The notes beneath the pieces were generated by a model. It was not told the DNA's origin. It made no database searches and saw nothing but the letters and a program-made list of their open reading frames with translations. Source: Prochlorococcus sp. AG-363-B04 (GTDB lineage: Bacteria > Cyanobacteriota > Cyanobacteriia > PCC-6307 > Cyanobiaceae). Taken from it: a stretch of 64,000 bases of DNA. Shown here in pieces: positions 1-8,335 of this stretch. A program made the position numbers and the translations under genes. The DNA lies in assembly GCA_003278465.1 (NCBI GenBank), contig QCFC01000006.1, positions 1 to 64,000 on the forward strand, given 5' to 3'. Each line of letters starts with the position of its first letter. Positions within the stretch are counted from its first letter, which is position 1.

Positions 1-46
1 AGAGCGGTATAGAAACTTCTATTTTTTAATGATATTTAGGTCACAC

Positions 47-170
47 GATGGCAAACCCTTTAACCAAGAACAGGCAATAGACCTGCTGGTGTCCTTGGTT
101 GCCACTGATGCGAACTCAGAAAAGAAGTGGAGAGGTTTCTATAACTCCTCCCTATCAAGCACTTAACTGC
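47..170 (+). pseudogene. degenerate copy of the 914-1035 segment
   Basis: This stretch aligns base by base with 914-1035, the 5' part of the small ORF at 899-1156. Both copies share a block reading FNQEQ(V/A)IDLLVSLVA. Small indels put the downstream part of the two copies in different frames, and this copy stops at a TAA inside the aligned block. It is therefore a decayed duplicate. No function is recognised for either copy. Confidence 0.6.
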
Positions 171-220
171 AGGATGAGTGAGATGACCACTGGAAAACTT
201 GAAGGGATTGCAAGGCACAA

Positions 221-243: not shown

Positions 244-407
244 CTCTTGGAGATCTAGAGCGCGTGTTTCCTTGTTTCCACTGCTCGGAGGATCTCAACT
301 CCTCACCTATATAGCTTACTTAGAAGATCAGGTTAGAGACAGAAGAACAGTGGAGTTAGTCAACTGGCACATGTGACAGTTGACTGCATTAGGGCATCAA
401 CCAACGC

Positions 408-437
408 AAAAAAAGGTGCCCTCATCGAGTAGCACCC
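408..437 (-). terminator. rho-independent terminator-like hairpin, minus strand
   Basis: A short stem (GGTGC at 415-419 with GCACC at 432-436) and a 12-nt loop is followed on the minus strand by seven Ts. The stem is weaker than that of the hairpin at 221-243. It also has no intact gene immediately upstream. Confidence 0.4.
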
Positions 438-627
438 ATATCGAGAAACTTGTGTGAGGAGTCTCGTAGTTCTGTTCTGCTCCAGCAGTGACCCCTGGTC
501 AACAAAGTGGCGAGTCAGAAAATAATTGTTCTAGAAAGCATTCGTTTAAAGATCACTTTCCAAGAGAAACAACGTTTCTTAAAATTAATAGAATTAATCT
601 ATTAATTGTTCTGTTAAGTCGTTCTGA

Positions 628-700
628 TTGCTAAATTAGAAGAACAGAAGAAACAACCTCTTTTTGGAACACCGATGGGAAAATTCCAAAAGCACAAATT
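628..700 (+). repeat. left arm of 73-bp perfect inverted repeat (truncated recombinase 5' end)
   Basis: Bases 628-700 are the exact reverse complement of 3544-3616. The right copy contains the leader and first nine codons of the serine recombinase gene. This copy carries the same leader and start codon, reading MGKFQKHK, then diverges at 701 and stops after 12 codons. The copies point toward each other and bracket the recombinase operon. They may be crossover sites of an invertible segment or the footprint of an old duplication. Confidence 0.9.
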
Positions 701-898
701 ATTCAGAGAATAATGGCAATTAATCTAGTAATCGATTCTTCGACAATTCCTTATAGTGCAAAAGCGACAGCACCAGCTCCAAGAGCAATAGCAGTGCTAC
801 GGAGTTTTATTCAGTTCGTTGAACTACCTAGGCAGTCTAGTTAGGACAGTCGATCTCATCAGAAAGCAGTAGGGTTTGAGAATGGGTACGAGAAGAAA

Positions 899-1156
899 TT
901 GATATTCCAATCAGATGACTGCAAATCCTTTAACCAAGAACAGGTAATCGATCTGCTGGTGTCCTTGGTTGCCATAGACACCAAGTCAGAAAAAAGTAGA
1001 GAGGTTTCTACAACTCCTTATCAAGCACTGAACTACATGGCATGGTGCTTTAACGGTAGTGAAATGATGTTCGATAGCGATGATGATTACATTGAATATA
1101 AATTTCCTGACTATTTGGAAGAAAGTGATTTAAATTATGAATTACATTACCTATAA
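899..1156 (+). CDS. hypothetical acidic small protein (TTG start)
   Basis: This is an 85-residue ORF with an acidic C-terminal half (runs of D and E) and no recognised domain. The only start in frame near its beginning is TTG. An overlapping +1 frame starts with ATG at 915 but ends after 10 codons. The first 40 codons are duplicated at 47-170 in decayed form. It may itself be a decayed or misframed gene, so coding status is uncertain. Confidence 0.35.
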   Translation: MIFQSDDCKSFNQEQVIDLLVSLVAIDTKSEKSREVSTTPYQALNYMAWCFNGSEMMFDSDDDYIEYKFPDYLEESDLNYELHYL

Positions 1157-1201
1157 ACATAAGGGAGTTGATTTAAGAAAATTTGACAAATAATAAGTAC
1201 A

Positions 1202-1351
1202 CTAACGAATAAACTCCAAGATTGCTTTGCCTACAAACAGAACAAATAAACCTTCTGTAAAAAGTATCCATCCAATCGTGGAGTTATTCATCCCCAACCT
1301 TCTATACCTATCAATCGTTGAGTCGTGTATTTGACGGATGGTGGCAAGCAT
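1202..1351 (-). CDS. small single-TM protein, last gene of recombinase operon
   Basis: This 49-residue ORF starts MLATIRQIHD and has one hydrophobic segment near its C-terminus (WILFTEGLFVLFVGKAILEF), so it is probably a small membrane protein. Its ATG directly abuts the TAA of the upstream gene ending at 1352, which supports translational coupling as the last member of the operon. No family is recognised. A similar STIGW/PTIGL motif before a hydrophobic stretch occurs in the 38-residue protein at 2374-2490, hinting at a shared origin. Confidence 0.55.
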   Translation of the reverse strand: MLATIRQIHDSTIDRYRRLGMNNSTIGWILFTEGLFVLFVGKAILEFIR

Positions 1352-1684
1352 TTAGTTTGCTCCCATTAATTTGATTTGATTTCCAGCATCACTTAATTTC
1401 ATCCACTTTTTTTCTTCCTCCTCACTAAAGGTCTCTACCCTTCTTGCATACACGGCATCTGCATTTAAGTCTTCGATCATTTCATAACCAAAAAATTCCA
1501 ATAACTCTTCCTGACTGTTAAAGCATCGATCACTCCACTCATAATTTTTATTCCCCTTTGCATTCTCATACTCATAACACTCATAGAAATAAGCAGTGTT
1601 ATACCTTCTAACTAGAGCAAATTCCTGTTGCTCTAGTTCTGGGAGTTTGTCGTACACGCTCCAACCAATTATCAAGACTGACAT
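1352..1684 (-). CDS. hypothetical protein, 110 aa, recombinase operon
   Basis: The protein starts MSVLIIGWSV and is rich in acidic and aromatic residues (YFYECYEYE) with an E-rich C-terminal helix (ETFSEEEEKKW). The frame stays open upstream to 1834, but that extension overlaps a better small gene in another frame. Its ATG at 1684 shares a TAATG overlap with that gene's stop, so 1684 is the likely start. A decayed copy of the N-terminal third lies at 8219-8335 on the plus strand. Function is not recognised. Confidence 0.6.
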   Translation of the reverse strand: MSVLIIGWSVYDKLPELEQQEFALVRRYNTAYFYECYEYENAKGNKNYEWSDRCFNSQEELLEFFGYEMIEDLNADAVYARRVETFSEEEEKKWMKLSDAGNQIKLMGAN

Positions 1685-1839
1685 TACTTGTTGAGTTGAG
1701 AGAGAAGGACTAACTGACGCTTGAGTTTTACGTTCTCGTCTTTTAATTCTTCCATCTCCTTCTGATACTTGTCGATCAAATCCAGAGTCCACTTCCAGTT
1801 CTTCTCTTTGCAGTGTGATCTTGCTGCATCCCAATCCAT
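1684..1839 (-). CDS. small coiled-coil-like protein, 51 aa
   Basis: The ORF begins MDWDAARSHC and runs to a K-rich, heptad-like helix (EMEELKDENVKLKRQLVLLS), suggesting a short coiled coil. It ends in a TAATG overlap with the next gene. It occupies a frame different from the longer open frame on the same strand. The decayed plus-strand copy at 8065-8219 preserves this frame's residues (KWTLDLIDK, LKRQLVL) apart from one frameshift, which supports this frame as the real one. Confidence 0.65.
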   Translation of the reverse strand: MDWDAARSHCKEKNWKWTLDLIDKYQKEMEELKDENVKLKRQLVLLSQLNK

Positions 1840-1855
1840 ATTGAAAACCTCATTA

Positions 1856-2167
1856 TCAATTGAGTCCTCTTGTCTTTTGTAGCAGAGTCTTATTCATGTC
1901 AACAGAACACTTCAAGATCATGAGTGGATAAATAGTTCCTTCTTTGTATTGCATATATGCCTCTTCACACATCGTTTGCCTAATTCCTACCCACTCTTCA
2001 AAAGTTTTGGATTTCAGTTCCTGCTTCAACTTTTTATCTAACTGAACAAGTTTGCTGAAAGCACATTCACGCATCGCGTAGGTATTTCCTTCGTTGCAAT
2101 ACCCCTCTTTCTCTTGTGCCAATGCAGGTAAAGGGATGAGTAATAGCAATAGAAGGAAGGATTTCAT
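1856..2167 (-). CDS. secreted LprI-like (DUF1311 type) protein
   Basis: This 103-residue protein has a clear Sec signal peptide (MKSFLLLLLLIPLPALAQ, cleavage near residue 18). The mature part has the cysteine pattern of LprI-like/DUF1311 proteins: a C in a MRECA-type motif, a W...R...C segment, a YKEGTIYPL stretch, and a late Cys. Some family members inhibit lysozyme; whether this one does is unknown. It is expected in the periplasm. Its ATG abuts the TAA of the upstream gene, so it belongs to the recombinase operon. A full-length pseudogene copy lies at 4678-4992. Confidence 0.6.
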   Translation of the reverse strand: MKSFLLLLLLIPLPALAQEKEGYCNEGNTYAMRECAFSKLVQLDKKLKQELKSKTFEEWVGIRQTMCEEAYMQYKEGTIYPLMILKCSVDMNKTLLQKTRGLN

Positions 2168-2377
2168 TTACTCCTGATCATTCATTAAATACAGCACCTC
2201 TAAATCTTGTCTTGAGTCGGCGACCTTCCTTCTTAAAAAGGTCAAGGCATCTCCATCCATTTGCGATTCAGCAATCATCGCTTCTGACTGGTCGATGGCA
2301 TGCTCCAAATTCTTGATTTTGAGTTGTCTAATTTCCTTATCTTTCTTGCACTGCTCAAGTGTGTAGGAATCAATCAT
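2168..2377 (-). CDS. hypothetical helical protein, 69 aa
   Basis: The protein starts MIDSYTLEQC and is charged and strongly helical, probably a short coiled coil (KEIRQLKIKNLEHAIDQSE). The start ATG overlaps the TGA of the preceding 38-residue gene by four bases (ATGA). Its stop abuts the start of the secreted protein gene. A decayed copy with the same gene order is at 10659-11010. No family is recognised. Confidence 0.6.
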   Translation of the reverse strand: MIDSYTLEQCKKDKEIRQLKIKNLEHAIDQSEAMIAESQMDGDALTFLRRKVADSRQDLEVLYLMNDQE

Positions 2378-2490
2378 CTTCTGTCTCGGTCCTTGGTGAA
2401 GACCCTTGTAATTACAATATTCATCACCACAAAGAAAATCACCAATCCAATCGTGGGAGCAAAGATAAACAGTGCATCGGAATAGTTCAT
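2374..2490 (-). CDS. tiny single-TM protein, 38 aa
   Basis: The ORF starts MNYSDALFIF, carries one hydrophobic helix (IGLVIFFVVMNIVI) and ends in a basic tail (KDRDRR), so the tail is predicted cytoplasmic. It overlaps both neighbours by a few bases (CGATGAAC at its start, ATGA at its end), which is strong evidence that it is translated. The remnant at 10659-11010 retains alignable sequence for this gene as well. Confidence 0.6.
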   Translation of the reverse strand: MNYSDALFIFAPTIGLVIFFVVMNIVITRVFTKDRDRR

Positions 2491-2693
2491 CGCTTTATAT
2501 CGGGCAGGTCTGGTGGTTGATTCCTCTTAAGTCGTTTGTATTCAGCATGAAGAGAACCTAGTCGCCATGCCTCCTTCATTGTTGTTGCTCCTTCGGCCAG
2601 CAGTTTGAGGTCATCAATAGAGACAGTGCCTTTAAGTTCCTTGAACTCTTCCCGCCACTCTGCTCCATCTGATTCTTTCCAATCAACAGTCAT
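2487..2693 (-). CDS. hypothetical protein, 68 aa
   Basis: The protein starts MTVDWKESDG, has Trp/Glu-rich N-terminal and Lys/Pro-rich C-terminal parts, and shows no domain I recognise. A strong GGAGG Shine-Dalgarno sequence sits just upstream, inside a 16-codon ORF that ends on its start codon. Position and overlaps place it in the middle of the recombinase operon. Confidence 0.55.
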   Translation of the reverse strand: MTVDWKESDGAEWREEFKELKGTVSIDDLKLLAEGATTMKEAWRLGSLHAEYKRLKRNQPPDLPDIKR

Positions 2694-2740
2694 TCTTCCG
2701 CCACCTCCTTAAGAAGGCAATAAACGCTATCTCTATGCAT
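2690..2740 (-). CDS. possible 16-aa leader-like ORF
   Basis: An ATG overlaps the TGA of the 65-residue gene (TGATG), and the ORF ends in an ATGA overlap with the 68-residue gene. It contains that gene's Shine-Dalgarno site. It could couple translation of the two genes, or simply be chance in a compact operon. Confidence 0.25.
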   Translation of the reverse strand: MHRDSVYCLLKEVAEE

Positions 2741-2937
2741 CACACCTGCCCTCGATATTTCTTGAACTCATCCAAGTCACTTATGACGATGCTCTGGTAA
2801 TCCTCCGGAAAACGCTGCTTCATGATTGCTGGAATTTCCAAGCAATCTGGATAGGGATTATGCAGATAAAAAATAACTTCTTTCTTCTCCTTCAAAACAA
2901 TGTAATCAGATAGTCCCCCTATATCTTTTTTAGTCAT
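2740..2937 (-). CDS. hypothetical protein, 65 aa, downstream of recombinase
   Basis: The protein starts MTKKDIGGLS and contains an alternating hydrophobic/charged pattern (EVIFYLHNPYPDCLEIPAI) compatible with a small alpha/beta fold. Its ATG overlaps the recombinase stop by four bases, so it is almost certainly co-translated with it. No family is recognised. Confidence 0.55.
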   Translation of the reverse strand: MTKKDIGGLSDYIVLKEKKEVIFYLHNPYPDCLEIPAIMKQRFPEDYQSIVISDLDEFKKYRGQV

Positions 2938-3569
2938 ACCGCTAACGCCTCCTGCTCCACGATGATTCTTCTAATGGTTGATAAAGCAATACCTGTTTGT
3001 TCTCTTATGGATCTATAAGAACAACCTTCTTTCCTTAGACGCAACACCAACCCTTCTTTGGCAGTACTGGTTTTAGGCCTGCCGCCTAAGTTCCCTCCTG
3101 TCTCCTTTCTGTGTTGGATGCTCTCAAGGGTTCTCTCTCTTGTGAGTGAGCGTTCCACTTCTGCAAGACCAGAAAGTAATCCAATTAGAACAGGTGCGAA
3201 CTTCCCAAGTCCTCTTGTATTGATGAGTCCATCGGTGGATCTGATGTGGACGCCTTTCTGTTGGAGGTCATGGATGAGATTAACGACCTCAACTTGAGTT
3301 CTGCCAAGACGATCCATCTTTGCCACCACTAACTCATCACCTTCATCGAGTGCTGCAAGTGCTGCCATCAGTTGAGGACGCTCTTTTTCTCTGACTTTGA
3401 TGCTGATCGTTTCTTGGAAAACAACACAGCATCCTTCTTTCTTCAGGGCAGCAACCTGACTCTCTGTGGTCTGCCCAGAGGTACTTACTTGCGCATAACC
3501 AATTGCTTTGTAGTTCGGTTTGCCCATGAAACTTGGCCTCTCAAATTTGTGCTTTTGGAATTTTCCCAT
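2934..3569 (-). CDS. serine recombinase of resolvase/invertase family, key Arg replaced
   Basis: The 211-residue protein has the full architecture of small serine recombinases: catalytic N-terminal domain with the nucleophile Ser29 in a GYAQVSTSGQ motif, the DRLGR motif (86-90), a dimer/E-helix region (about 120-150) and a C-terminal helix-turn-helix (about 170-205). The invariant Arg two residues before the Ser is Gln27 here (CAA, one transition from CGA), which should impair catalysis. A second start at 3527 (MGKPNYKAIG) has GAGAGG nine bases upstream, fits family N-termini better and may be the true start. It heads a tightly packed operon of small genes, and its 5' end lies in the right arm of a 73-bp inverted repeat. 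Confidence 0.85.
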   Translation of the reverse strand: MGKFQKHKFERPSFMGKPNYKAIGYAQVSTSGQTTESQVAALKKEGCCVVFQETISIKVREKERPQLMAALAALDEGDELVVAKMDRLGRTQVEVVNLIHDLQQKGVHIRSTDGLINTRGLGKFAPVLIGLLSGLAEVERSLTRERTLESIQHRKETGGNLGGRPKTSTAKEGLVLRLRKEGCSYRSIREQTGIALSTIRRIIVEQEALAV

Positions 3570-3616
3570 CGGTGTTCCAAAAAGAGGTTGTTTCTTCTGT
3601 TCTTCTAATTTAGCAA
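3544..3616 (-). repeat. right arm of 73-bp perfect inverted repeat
   Basis: This exact reverse complement of 628-700 covers the leader and first nine codons of the longer recombinase ORF. An exchange between the two arms would flip about 2.8 kb, keep this 5' end intact and place the recombinase operon behind whatever lies left of 628. Sequence outside the arms diverges immediately on both sides. Confidence 0.9.
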
Positions 3617-3796
3617 CTAATTACCCTTACTGGAACATATATTTCAAGTAAATACTATATTTTATGCATTTCTATTTGTAGAACTAAATGGTTGGTATCT
3701 ATTTGATTATTGGAACATTAATTCTACCGTTTTTGCTCTGACCACTTGATCAGACCACCTCTATGAGACTAGTACTTGCGTACCATTAACAGGGCT

Positions 3797-3883
3797 ATGG
3801 CGTGGGCAAAAAGTAATAGAGCAGTCGCACCAGCTCATATAAGCGATGAACCTGAAGAATGGGATTATTTCGACAAACTATAA
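3797..3883 (+). CDS. possible tiny protein, 28 aa
   Basis: The ORF starts MAWAKSNRAV and ends with an acidic, aromatic tail (DEPEEWDYFDKL). The residue make-up resembles the very short acidic proteins common in marine picocyanobacteria. Its stop overlaps the end of the convergent gene at 3878. Coding status rests on composition only. Confidence 0.35.
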   Translation: MAWAKSNRAVAPAHISDEPEEWDYFDKL

Positions 3884-4462
3884 TTTAGTCTCTATTAATG
3901 AAGGTAAATTCGCTATCTGACTATAGCTATTCTGCGGGTAAATAGAAATTGATTCTTCATTTAGATCCTTTTTAAAATTATGACCACTTACGAAACCAAT
4001 GCCACCAAATATTATCGCACTAGCAAGGATAATTATAGCTTTCTTGTTTTCTGAATCAGTTGTATCCTCATTGGATTTCTTCCCATACTCTTTGATATTC
4101 AAGCCAGTAATATTTTCGGCTAGCCATGTAGCACCAGCACCACCTCCCACCATTAATATCCATTCAGCAAAGAATGCTAATAATATAAGACCTCCTATAA
4201 TTATTACCCCAGCTCCAGAGCCAGAGCTAGGACTATAAGAGCTATTGAGAAATCCTCCGGCATTACCAGAAGTATGTCTAATGTTTACTTTTTGTTCTGC
4301 ATGATCTATATTTTTCATTTTTTCTGCCACAGGATTCATACCAATAATCTTGGCGGTTGGATTTCGTTGCTTCGCAGTTATTCTTGCTGATTCGCGATCA
4401 TTAACTTCATAGGTTTCTTTCCAAGTCTTCCCGCCCACGTAGAAGGTCACTTCCATTTTCAT
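3878..4462 (-). CDS. hypothetical membrane protein with glycine-rich TM segment
   Basis: This 194-residue protein has a soluble N-terminal beta-rich part (MKMEVTFYVGGKTW) with an AKQRNPTAKIIG motif, then a Ser/Gly linker. It has one long hydrophobic Gly-rich segment (about 85-120) and a second TM helix near 143-160 (AIIILASAIIFGGIGF). It is probably an inner- or thylakoid-membrane protein with a cytoplasmic N-terminal domain. No known family is recognised. It is a single gene, convergent with the tiny ORF at 3797. Confidence 0.65.
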   Translation of the reverse strand: MKMEVTFYVGGKTWKETYEVNDRESARITAKQRNPTAKIIGMNPVAEKMKNIDHAEQKVNIRHTSGNAGGFLNSSYSPSSGSGAGVIIIGGLILLAFFAEWILMVGGGAGATWLAENITGLNIKEYGKKSNEDTTDSENKKAIIILASAIIFGGIGFVSGHNFKKDLNEESISIYPQNSYSQIANLPSLIETKL

Positions 4463-4531
4463 TTGTTTTTCTCCTTGAGGAACGGGTTGGGAATCACAAA
4501 GTTATTGGCTACTACGCTATCTCTTTTTAGG

Positions 4532-4660
4532 TTAAATCCGATTCGCGGTCCTACTTGACATATCTGCTGTTATTTGATTTGCCTGAGGCGAAGACCACAG
4601 CACTAGCACGACGATTCCAAGCAGGACTTTTTTGATAAGTTTCTGCTTAAGACTTTTACC
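4532..4660 (-). pseudogene. fragment of a small signal-peptide protein without start
   Basis: The minus strand reads KQKLIKKVLLGIVVLVLW followed by SSPQANQITADM and a stop. This resembles a signal or anchor segment plus a short tail of the kind found in small picocyanobacterial proteins. No ATG, GTG or TTG precedes it after the upstream stop, so it looks like a start-less remnant. Confidence 0.35.
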
Positions 4661-4677
4661 TAGTTAATCTAGGTCAA

Positions 4678-4992
4678 CTACGTCCTACCATCTTTTTTCG
4701 TCAGGGTTTTGTTCATATCGATTCTGCACTTGATTTACTACTTGGGGTGGGGAAAGATGGTGCCTTTAGAGTATTGCTAATAGCCCTCATTACACTCCTG
4801 CTTTCTAATTCTAACTCAGTTCTCAAAGGTCTTGGGTCTCATTACCTTCTTCAATTCCTTGTGCGATCCCATCAATTCTTTAAAACTGAATTCCCATATT
4901 GTATAGGTAGTAGGTCCATCGCACTCATTCTGTTCGGTCGCTGATGCAGGTAATGGTATTAACAGGAGAAGAAATAGCAGGGAGTAAATCAT
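4678..4992 (-). pseudogene. decayed full-length paralog of the LprI-like gene at 1856-2167
   Basis: The frame from ATG 4992 encodes a signal peptide (MIYSLLFLLLLIPLPASA) and stays alignable to the secreted LprI-like protein over its full length. Its 105 codons compare with 104 in the intact gene. Matching blocks include PKTFE, QYSKGTI and DMNKTL. Four in-frame stops interrupt it: a Trp codon changed to TGA, a lone TAG, and a TAG-TAA pair. It is degraded by point mutation with the frame kept, which implies fairly recent loss. Confidence 0.8.
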
Positions 4993-5211
4993 TTCCCTTT
5001 AACTGACTATAAGATTCGTCTTTTTATTTTTATAGGATAACATCTTTGTAACGCTAAGTCTAACGTTGTTGTCAGATTTAAACACCTGTGAATGCGTAAT
5101 ACCACAGGAAAACAATGAATCAGTCTCCGATGTGAGATATACCCCTGCATGGTTTTCTTGAACGCAATGTATTTTTAAATGTAAGGCATGAATTTTTTAC
5201 TGGTGAGACAG

Positions 5212-7020
5212 TTAGTTTTTATCTTTTGAAACCAGTAGGGGCTCAATAATCATATTTTCTCTAAAAAATTCTCTTGGCAGCAGGGGTTCCATATCCTCAT
5301 TAGGTCTCCCAAACTTAACTTGGGGGTTAACTCTTGCCTCTTTTGAAATTCTTAAATTCAATAAGAAAGACTTCTTAGATTTAAAAAGTTTTTTAAATGC
5401 TTCAGTTAAATAATTAGCTTTATCAGTTTCTAGATATTCAATATTATATGCTCTTGCAAGATCTTTATAATTAGGGAAGGAAAGACCTCCTTGAGTCGAT
5501 GATGCTACGTATTTCGAGGATAGCCATTGATCCTGAGTTTGCTTAATCATTGAATATCCAGCGTTGTTTATTAATATAATCTTAAGTGGAATATTATATT
5601 GCTTTAAATTTGCTAGTTCTTGTACTGTCATCATTAAACTTCCATCTCCTATTATACAAATAGTATGCTTGTCTTTGCCAAGAAAATAACTTCCTATAGA
5701 CGCAGGTAAAGACCAACCCATTGCTGTATTATTAAAGTCATGGAAAACCCTCTGACTACTGGTAAGTTTCAAAGTTTGCATGGACCAAGCAATGGAACAA
5801 CCTGTGTCTATAAAAAGAGAGCAGTCTTGTGGTAAAAGCTTTGATAATACATCAAATGTATGATATGGATCTAGGAAATCTTGATTAGAGGCTCTATCTT
5901 TTTGTATATTAAATAATTTTTTCCATTCTTTAATCTTATTTTTCCACGAAGAAAACTGGAGCTCATCAAAGTCATTTAGATGCTCTTTGATATCTTTAAA
6001 GAAATCTCTGAGATCTTGTTGAATTAAGGCATCAAACTCTAGACCAAAATTACTAAATTTCTTCAATTCACAAGGGTCTATATCTATCATTATCTTTTTT
6101 GCTTCTCTAGCAAAGGTTGTTACTGGAGAACCTGTAGACTTTGTATCTAATCTAGAACCAAGAGATAAGATTAAATCACTATTTTGTACAGCAAAATTAG
6201 CATGACGCATTCCATGCGTGCCAAAGGTACCGACATATAGTTCATGATTATAAGGCAATAGGTCAGAAGCTCCCCAGGTAAGAGCTACTGGTATATCAAG
6301 TTTCTCAGCAAAGTCTAGGAATTGTTTTTCAGTATTGCTTAAATGAACCCCCCATCCAGCTATTAATATTGGTCGTTTAGAATTAATCAAAAGAGATTTA
6401 AATTGAGTGTAGATATCTTTAACTTTTGGGAAAATAGACCTTCTTTCTTGATTAGTTGGGTAACTATATCCAGCTAATGAACTAGGCTCAATAAATTCTC
6501 TTTGCAAATTATCAGGTATATCTATTAATACCGGTCCAGGTCTGTTTGTTAGTGATATATAAAGTGCTTTTTCCAACTCATATCTTATTCTCTGAGGATC
6601 TGAAATCTGAACACAATATTTTGTAATAGGCTCTACCATTGATGTAATAGGTGTTTCTTGGAAGCCTATTTGCCTAACACCTGTATTTCCTGTCATTCGA
6701 AATGTACTAACTTGACCAGTTAAAACAAGTAACGGAACAGAATCATAATAGCTACAACATATTCCAGTAATAAGGTTTGTAGCTCCAGGACCGCTTGTTG
6801 CAACTACAACACCAAAAAGTCTTGATCTCCTTGAATACCCATCTGCAGCCATTGCAGCACCTTGCTCATGATGAGTACATACATAATTAATATCATTCGT
6901 AATATCTATGGAATGAATCAGATGAAGAGAAGCACCTCCTGAAACAGTAAATACTGTAGTAATACCTTTTCTAGCCAGAAATTCTGCTACATAATCAGAA
7001 AGTTTTACTTTACTTACCAT
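5212..7020 (-). CDS. thiamine-diphosphate carboligase, acetolactate synthase-like
   Basis: This 602-residue member of the acetolactate synthase large-subunit superfamily has an N-terminal PYR domain with the catalytic Glu52 in HHEQGAAMAADGYSR, a central domain, and a C-terminal PP domain. The ThDP motif starts at GDGS (458) and ends at the NNAGYS stretch. It is about the size of AHAS, but no regulatory subunit is nearby and the setting is a surface-sugar region. A role like YerE, which adds a two-carbon branch to nucleotide sugars, is therefore as likely as branched-chain amino acid synthesis. A truncated relative with an SDR partner is at 11.6-12.9 kb. The family call is firm; the substrate is unknown. 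Confidence 0.8.
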   Translation of the reverse strand: MVSKVKLSDYVAEFLARKGITTVFTVSGGASLHLIHSIDITNDINYVCTHHEQGAAMAADGYSRRSRLFGVVVATSGPGATNLITGICCSYYDSVPLLVLTGQVSTFRMTGNTGVRQIGFQETPITSMVEPITKYCVQISDPQRIRYELEKALYISLTNRPGPVLIDIPDNLQREFIEPSSLAGYSYPTNQERRSIFPKVKDIYTQFKSLLINSKRPILIAGWGVHLSNTEKQFLDFAEKLDIPVALTWGASDLLPYNHELYVGTFGTHGMRHANFAVQNSDLILSLGSRLDTKSTGSPVTTFAREAKKIMIDIDPCELKKFSNFGLEFDALIQQDLRDFFKDIKEHLNDFDELQFSSWKNKIKEWKKLFNIQKDRASNQDFLDPYHTFDVLSKLLPQDCSLFIDTGCSIAWSMQTLKLTSSQRVFHDFNNTAMGWSLPASIGSYFLGKDKHTICIIGDGSLMMTVQELANLKQYNIPLKIILINNAGYSMIKQTQDQWLSSKYVASSTQGGLSFPNYKDLARAYNIEYLETDKANYLTEAFKKLFKSKKSFLLNLRISKEARVNPQVKFGRPNEDMEPLLPREFFRENMIIEPLLVSKDKN

Positions 7021-7068
7021 GACATGTTCATTGCAGTGGTGTAAAGGATTTTCAGCCTTGCCATAGAT

Positions 7069-7182
7069 TCACAGCTCCCAGTTGCAGTCAAAGCAGTTAT
7101 ATAAACCAAACCCTTTAAGTAATTCTATAGCTTGCTCTATATATTTGAGATCTTGATCTGGATCACAAGGATGATGAAGCAT
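7069..7182 (-). CDS. small conserved-looking protein with CxxC, 37 aa
   Basis: The ORF starts MLHHPCDPDQ, continues as an amphipathic helix (LKYIEQAIELLKGFGL) and ends in NCFDCNWEL with a CxxC. The orderly composition and CxxC motif suggest a real tiny protein, perhaps metal-binding. It lies 48 bp upstream of the carboligase gene in the same direction. No family is recognised. Confidence 0.45.
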   Translation of the reverse strand: MLHHPCDPDQDLKYIEQAIELLKGFGLYNCFDCNWEL

Positions 7183-7192
7183 TGGGAGGCAT

Positions 7193-7393
7193 TTGAACAA
7201 TTCAAACTCTCTTCCCTACGAAGTGCTTTATCCCAAGACTGTGACCTCACAGGAAGAGGTGGATGAGTTGACGGTTAAGAACTGGGATGATGGGTATCAA
7301 GGTTTAATGCTTAGGGCCCCAAATGGTTCATACAAGCTGTGTCGTTCAACGGTGAAGGGGAACACTCTTATAGATCCATCTTGGTTTTTCTGA
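7193..7393 (+). pseudogene. fragment of phage-type ATP-dependent DNA ligase
   Basis: The translation contains GYQGLMLRAPNG followed by YKLCRSTVKGN. This matches the signature GYEG(L/I)MLR-P-G-YK-GRST-KEG at motif IV/V of the nucleotidyltransferase domain in small ATP-dependent DNA ligases, especially those of phages. The preceding YEVLYPKTVTSQEEVDE also fits the region before that motif. The frame opens only at a TTG and ends in unrelated residues, with none of the remaining ligase domains around it. It looks like a relic of cyanophage or satellite DNA. Confidence 0.55.
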
Positions 7394-7536
7394 ACACTAT
7401 TATTATCCCATAATTGTTCTCCAAAGTGACTTTTTGGAACTGCAACCCAAGCATGCGATAAAGCATCTTATTTGAAGGGGTAAAAAATAATTAGAAGTCC
7501 AAAAAAACAAGACAAATACTTCTAATGGAGTTGATT

Positions 7537-7570
7537 TTTATTACAAGGAGAATGTTGTCCTTGTAATAAA
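7537..7570. repeat. 13-bp perfect hairpin
   Basis: The arms TTTATTACAAGGA (7537-7549) and its exact complement (7558-7570) surround an 8-nt loop. It sits 34 bp beyond the stop of the small gene at 7604-7783, where a terminator would be expected. However, it has no U-tract on that strand beyond the A/T-rich stem itself. Confidence 0.6.
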
Positions 7571-7603
7571 TCTTACTTAAGAAACTTCTGGACAACAATC
7601 AAC

Positions 7604-7783
7604 TTAACTGCCCTTCGACAACCACTTGAATGCCCAATACCCCAACAAAGCAACGATTACCCAAGGGATGAGTGCTCTGATGACCCACAGGGAAAGCAGA
7701 AGAACTAACGCAGAAAGGACAACCCGCTTGGTCATTGCCTTCGCGTCATCAGTCATGTATTCCCATCGAGGAATTAGAGACAT
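7604..7783 (-). CDS. small two-helix membrane protein, 59 aa
   Basis: The ORF starts MSLIPRWEYM, has a short charged N-terminal region (TDDAKAMTKR) and then two close hydrophobic helices (about 21-36 and 39-53), ending WLSKGS. This layout is typical of a small integral membrane protein. The plus-strand frame over the same bases has no protein-like features. A hairpin follows its stop. No family name can be given. Confidence 0.6.
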   Translation of the reverse strand: MSLIPRWEYMTDDAKAMTKRVVLSALVLLLSLWVIRALIPWVIVALLGYWAFKWLSKGS

Positions 7784-8064
7784 GGATTCGGAGTTTGTTG
7801 CCCTTCCTTTTTAATTGATTTCTTTGCTTTCAGTAAGGCATTAAGAAGGGCGGGGTATTTCGATCCCGCCCTTTGAGTCAAGCACTTATTTTTTAGACCG
7901 TTCGTGCTCTGACTCCTGATTCAATTCTAGATCGTTGAGAGCAAGATTCAATGGTGATAAACACCTGTTTTTAAGCAACTTCAGGACACCAACCAATCTC
8001 CAGCACTCGCTTCTTCTGCCAATGCCTATTCAGAATGCTTAGCAATGAATCGGGAGTTCTAACT
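7784..8064. other. intergenic, possible short minus-strand ORF
   Basis: Apart from a strong hairpin (7846-7873), the stretch contains a minus-strand frame 7886-7996 with a TTG start and a hydrophilic end (LNQESEHERSKK). It may be a remnant. I see no other support for a gene. Confidence 0.3.
7846..7873. terminator. 9-bp GC-rich hairpin, possible terminator
   Basis: AAGGGCGGG (7846-7854) pairs perfectly with CCCGCCCTT (7865-7873) around a 10-nt loop. It stands out strongly in AT-rich surroundings. U-tracts are weak on both strands, so termination is uncertain. No intact gene ends directly at it. Confidence 0.4.
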
Positions 8065-8335
8065 ATGGATCGGATGCAGCATGAAAATACTGCACAGAAA
8101 AGAACTGGAAGTGGACACTGGACTTGATCGACAAGTGCCAGAAGGAAATGGAAGGACTAAAAGATGAGAACTTAAAACTCAAAAGGCAATTAGTTCTCAG
8201 GTCTCAACTGAACAAGTAATACGAGTCCTCATCATTGGTTTGGAGTGTGTACGCAGCTTTCCTAGGGAAGAGCAAAAAAGGAGTTTGCTTAAGAGCTTAT
8301 AGGACTGATTATTTTTATGAATGCTATGAATTCTG
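8065..8335 (+). pseudogene. decayed copy of the 51-aa/110-aa gene pair, inverted orientation
   Basis: Bases 8065-8219 align with the coiled-coil gene at 1684-1839. One missing base near codon 6 shifts the frame, after which KWTLDLIDK and LKRQLVL are preserved up to a TAA in the same place. The adjacent start of the second gene has changed from ATG to ATA, and stops and frameshifts follow. The copy lies on the opposite strand from the intact pair. It is a second, rearranged and dead copy of part of the recombinase operon. Confidence 0.75.

Follow-up and report, generated by a model that had tools for sequence, protein, structure and literature searches.

The closest described systems to the locus reported here are the DNA invertase switches (Hin, Gin and Mpi), in which a small serine recombinase acts beside inverted repeats, and the Tn3 and gamma-delta resolvases. 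The recombination sites of the known invertases are short. Tycheposons are known for tyrosine recombinases. In Prochlorococcus, non-coding RNAs concentrate in genomic islands (PMC2518516).

We analyzed a locus near the start of a 64-kb stretch of DNA, hereafter the window, that shares features with several of these systems. As in the Hin, Gin and Mpi switches, a small serine recombinase lies beside inverted repeats, and an invertase is the best structure match of the protein; the NCBIfam Mpi invertase model matched it at 2.9e-13, but with a score of 50 against a cut-off of 272. Unlike in these switches, the repeat in the window is not conserved in relatives, a catalytic arginine is replaced, and the arms lie inside the recombinase start. 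The solved structures that best matched the protein also included Tn3 and gamma-delta resolvases, with which it aligns over residues 22-209, and a divergent neighbor with an intervening leader recalls, by analogy only, the Tn3 res region. Unlike in Tn3 and gamma-delta, no transposase was found adjoining the window recombinase, and the R8 position is Gln. Like the Prochlorococcus islands that carry non-coding RNAs, the locus differs from genome to genome and contains variable small genes as well as a Cyano-1 RNA, and this variability of its genes suggests that it resides in a genomic island.

The inverted repeat and its surroundings

The window starts at base 1 of contig C6 of a 1.50-Mb genome assembly (41 contigs, 78% complete). 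A repeat search of the window found that bases 628-700 and 3544-3616 are complementary at 73/73 nt, with 2843 nt between the arms. At a minimum length of 30 nt, the 64 kb contain no other perfect inverted repeat and no perfect direct repeat, and a chance origin of the pair is therefore negligible. The features of the region are as follows.

30..171, plus strand: partial copy of dispersed repeat R, 82% identical to 900-1037
246..312, minus strand: Cyano-1 small RNA in flank X (Rfam RF01701, 49.2 bits)
401..627, plus strand: X-type recombinase leader whose gene is now absent, recognized by identity to the leaders of relatives
628..700, plus strand: left arm of the 73-bp inverted repeat (repeat search and genome search)
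675..713, plus strand: truncated recombinase start, MGKFQKHKLFRE-stop (translation at the left arm)
701..767, no strand: sequence behind the left arm that has no known relatives, with junction 700/701; matches to the region that follows begin at ~757-768
768..1040, plus strand: full copy of dispersed repeat R (family genome search)
1202..2693, minus strand: small-gene operon downstream of the recombinase, with ORFs at 1202-1351, 1352-1684, 1684-1839, 1856-2167, 2168-2377, 2374-2490 and 2487-2693 that recur in relatives
2740..2937, minus strand: 65-aa ORF, a recurrent recombinase partner, overlapping the recombinase stop by ATGA
2934..3569, minus strand: small serine recombinase, 211 aa, Gln at the Arg8 position (Pfam Resolvase, 2.4e-29)
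3544..3616, minus strand: right arm, the leader end plus recombinase codons 1-9 (repeat search, ORF position)
3617..3775, minus strand: U-type leader, now preceding the recombinase (leader identity and alignments to L011 and L014)
3797..3877, plus strand: N-terminal piece (residues 1-27) of a divergent 94-aa neighbor gene (comparison with relatives)
7974..8081, minus strand: C-terminal piece of that 94-aa family (residues 59-94), with clear DNA identity to relatives for 7972-8028

The right arm combines 47 bp of leader with codons 1-9 of the recombinase gene on the minus strand. Outside the arms identity drops sharply: compared over 290 bp, the leaders share 52% identity even with part of the arm included. 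An earlier, sequence-only reading of this DNA had described a perfect 73-bp inverted repeat with abrupt divergence beyond it, and had taken the right copy for the leader and start of the recombinase gene; our results bear out both descriptions. The gene start in the left arm codes for MGKFQKHKLFRE-stop alone. A search of the whole genome returned exactly 2 copies of the 73-bp block, and thus not the many unlinked copies that the same reading had named as the finding that would count against it. The bases flanking the arms (GTTCTGA at 621-627, CTAATTA at 3617-3623) do not form a target-site duplication. We rejected an inverted-repeat-bounded insertion sequence, given arms that occur only twice in the genome and no target-site duplication outside them.

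The recombinase and its small-gene partners

The Resolvase catalytic domain of the recombinase corresponds to PF00239. At its C-terminus, Pfam HTH_7 matched with E 0.014, too weakly to reach the cut-off, and structure matches reach residues 200-209. Equivalents of S10, R45, D67, R68, R71, E124 and R125 are all present, while R8 is replaced by Gln, so that the motif reads YAQVST. The arginine is kept in close homologues (at least 79% protein identity), and besides the window it is missing only in the divergent loci L035 and L036. In resolvase, R8 belongs to the arginines in contact with the scissile phosphate (PMC4499144); judged from the alignment, the window enzyme has lost the equivalent catalytic arginine. 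Comparison with locus L006 gave a dN/dS of ~0.1 (0.06/0.61), indicating that the recombinase is not a long-dead gene.

Catalytic residues are also lost in relatives with open genes, namely L008 (R45L, R71S), L012 (R45L), L014 (R45C, R68L, R71S) and L035 (R8L, S10G, D67S, R68Y). The family members with such losses are otherwise conserved, and closer pairs have a dN/dS of ~0.1. A non-catalytic role, for example in DNA binding, is possible for the residue-deficient proteins.

The 65-aa ORF follows all 3 serine recombinases of the genome (also at C1:87915-88109 and C3:31460-31648), and its copies are 85-97% identical. The other 2 recombinases are only 31% identical to that of the window, yet have the same 65-aa partner. 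By hand comparison, ~22 of the 55 genomes with the ORF have such a recombinase no more than ~300 bp away from it. Small genes of the operon type vary in combination and order behind the recombinases of loci L006-L020, in the manner of cassettes, and some of them are joined through ATGA overlaps. This wider family, a recombinase plus recurring small genes in which several members have lost catalytic residues, may be worth examining as a module with a mobile or regulatory role.

Several other identities were considered for the locus and rejected. The IS607 transposase model of NCBIfam scored 20.1 bits against the recombinase (cut-off, 110), which argues against an IS607-type element. For a defence island, PADLOC gave no match to the recombinase, and a marginal JetD match (E 0.0015) to a 69-aa ORF was unconvincing. 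For a phage origin, the DNA was unmatched in phage records, and viral contigs held no relative.

Leaders, the gene tree and the origin of the repeat

The relatives identified by protein search were Prochlorococcus drafts with names typical of single-cell genomes, and the window, too, very probably comes from a single Prochlorococcus cell. X-type sequence stands directly upstream of the recombinase in 6 of them (L006, L007, L008, L009, L010 and L016), and U-type sequence does so in L011 and L014. The upstream region of L006 is collinear with bases 50-700 of the window at 87% identity. Within it, the X leader (401-627) is 83% identical to the recombinase leader of L006 and 70-78% identical to those of L007-L010 and L016, and the Cyano-1 RNA, whose score exceeds the gathering score of 41 for RF01701, is found at the corresponding position ahead of the recombinase in L006 and L016; most of the 6 X-type flanks include this RNA. 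Over 290 bp, the left leader is 71-82% identical to the 6 X-type leaders, while the right leader is 62-63% identical to those of L011 and L014 compared to 47-50% for the X-type leaders. In a tree of recombinase DNA, the window gene fell on the X side, split from L011 and L014 with support of 94/93; the tree fixes the side, not the exact place within it. Among relatives, leader type tracks recombinase clade. The window thus has an X-clade recombinase under a U leader and an X leader without its gene, indicating that the leaders are swapped relative to the gene. Reversing an inversion of 701-3543 restores the order X leader, arm and recombinase that is found in the 6 relatives. The flipped arrangement that the earlier reading had proposed to look for in close relatives therefore exists as far as the join of X leader, arm and recombinase is concerned, with the window's left flank upstream of the recombinase in all 6.

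No relative has a second arm: in a leader search of 400 genomes, copies were single besides short weak matches. The 700/701 junction was absent from all 197 relatives included in a junction search, and G070, a single contig that is 99% complete, has one copy of the leader. Orphaned or truncated 5' regions do occur elsewhere. In L058 the recombinase is cut at codon 8, L061 has only decayed first codons behind its leader, and the 5' part of the gene is lost in L017 and L020.

We consider it fairly probable (roughly 0.58) that the inverted repeat is the recent, lineage-specific product of recombination in a plastic Prochlorococcus island. Two recombinase 5' regions, the X leader with Cyano-1 and the U leader, would have lain in the island in opposite orientations. 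Recombination between them, most likely homologous, would have placed the X-clade recombinase under the U leader, so that the X leader retained no more of a gene than its first codons, while 73 bp were made identical. The second copy would already have lost its recombinase body, or would have lost it later, and the assembled result would be an inversion of 701-3543 compared to relatives. The composition of the arm is consistent with this view. Its coding part matches the 6 X-type loci at 22-25 of 26 bases and L011/L014 at 15/26, its outer 23 bases match U-type L011 at 20 positions and X-type loci at 18 or fewer, and the LFRE residues just behind the left arm are similar to LFSE in the U-type protein. 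These few bases hint at a recombination between X-type and U-type copies inside the arm, followed by conversion. A conversion step would be needed, since a purely reciprocal crossover would leave the arms non-identical. With 0 differences in 73 bp, arm divergence is at most ~4% (a rough 95% limit by our own arithmetic), while the synonymous distance to the nearest relative, L006, is 0.61; the event would therefore be recent. That a crossover and a conversion took place in the cell, and at about that time, is what we infer from these observations. Recombination between the arms could still proceed at a low rate. Such an origin would mean that a Prochlorococcus island can swap the region upstream of a recombinase operon by recombination within the gene's own start.

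The sequence-only reading had raised a phase switch for the small-gene operon as one possibility. In such a switch, inversion of the 2.8 kb between the arms, by the recombinase itself or by a related enzyme, would make X and U leaders alternate before the recombinase and its operon. The perfect inverted arms enclose a resolvase/invertase-type serine recombinase and are candidate recombination sites, inversion would leave the recombinase start intact, and relatives of the gene have either an X or a U leader upstream. Against this, such paired sites are not conserved with the gene, relatives in the 400- and 197-genome searches (G070 included) having one leader copy each and none having a second arm or the junction. 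Moreover, gene clade and leader type go together, the R8 arginine is missing from the window enzyme, and 73-bp arms within a gene start are unlike the short recombination sites of the known invertases. On this evidence, a programmed switch of this kind is very unlikely. We give just as little credence to a self-encoded leader switch, in which the inversion site would be the recombinase's own start, with the Cyano-1-bearing and the second leader alternating in front of an unbroken gene. Nothing points to regulated switching, and a private inverted repeat such as this one should not be read as a phase switch.

A simple partial duplication is another account of the truncated start: a second recombinase copy would have lost everything beyond codon 9, its start being homogenized by gene conversion, with no inversion. 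The orphan leaders of L058 and L061, with their deleted recombinase bodies, provide precedent, the same genome has further recombinase modules (on contigs C1 and C3), and one-way copying fits the identical mosaic in both arms. However, the gene that survives belongs to the X clade and has a U leader, and for that reason a join of X and U sequence is required in any case. Of the earlier suggestion that the second gene copy was truncated after a duplication, the second gene start with its MGKFQKHKLFRE-stop ending stands, which makes the suggestion partly right; we regard duplication without inversion as rather improbable. Doubtful, too, is an artefact, be it chimeric joins from the amplification of single-cell DNA or flanks misjoined by the assembler across the 73-bp repeat. 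The assembly looks single-cell in its contig number and completeness, its relatives are similar drafts, base 1 of the window is a contig end, and no relative shares the 700/701 junction. Chimeras formed during amplification are mostly inverted (PMC1855051). However, the outer flanks are both genuine leader homologues in register with the gene start, and because the arms carry different leaders outside, 2 separate jumps would be needed; a wrong orientation chosen by the assembler is possible and would still leave the repeat real. Recombination between X and U copies remains the reading that we prefer.

A split neighbor gene and further elements

A second REARRANGEMENT was apparent beyond the U leader, where 2 pieces of the 94-aa gene (3797-3877 and 7974-8081) lie in opposite orientation and 4 kb apart. 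The usual neighbor of this gene (7604-7783) is also turned relative to the leader, compared to L058 and L018. The split of the neighbor gene into oppositely oriented pieces indicates that the region was rearranged at least once more. A single inversion of ~3878-8081 would plausibly rejoin the gene; we do not claim it, since the 2 pieces resemble different relatives.

Of the 12 genomes with the leader motif TGTTCCANTAAGNCGTTCTNGTTG, 11 contain it once, and recombination sites elsewhere in the genomes were discarded as a candidate because the motif is single-copy in all but one of these. A scan for promoters and terminators found sites to be no more numerous than in shuffled sequence. Within flank X, bases 409-483 form a short hairpin element with a T-run on the minus strand that recurs in L008, L010, L016 and L017. 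The element was found in both orientations, with inverted copies flanking the recombinase in L008 and L016, and is perhaps another small RNA or a terminator. Bases 701-1160 were matched in 58/400 family genomes, nearly all inside repeat R (768-1040), a dispersed repeat of ~270 bp with definite ends that is often present twice in these genomes.
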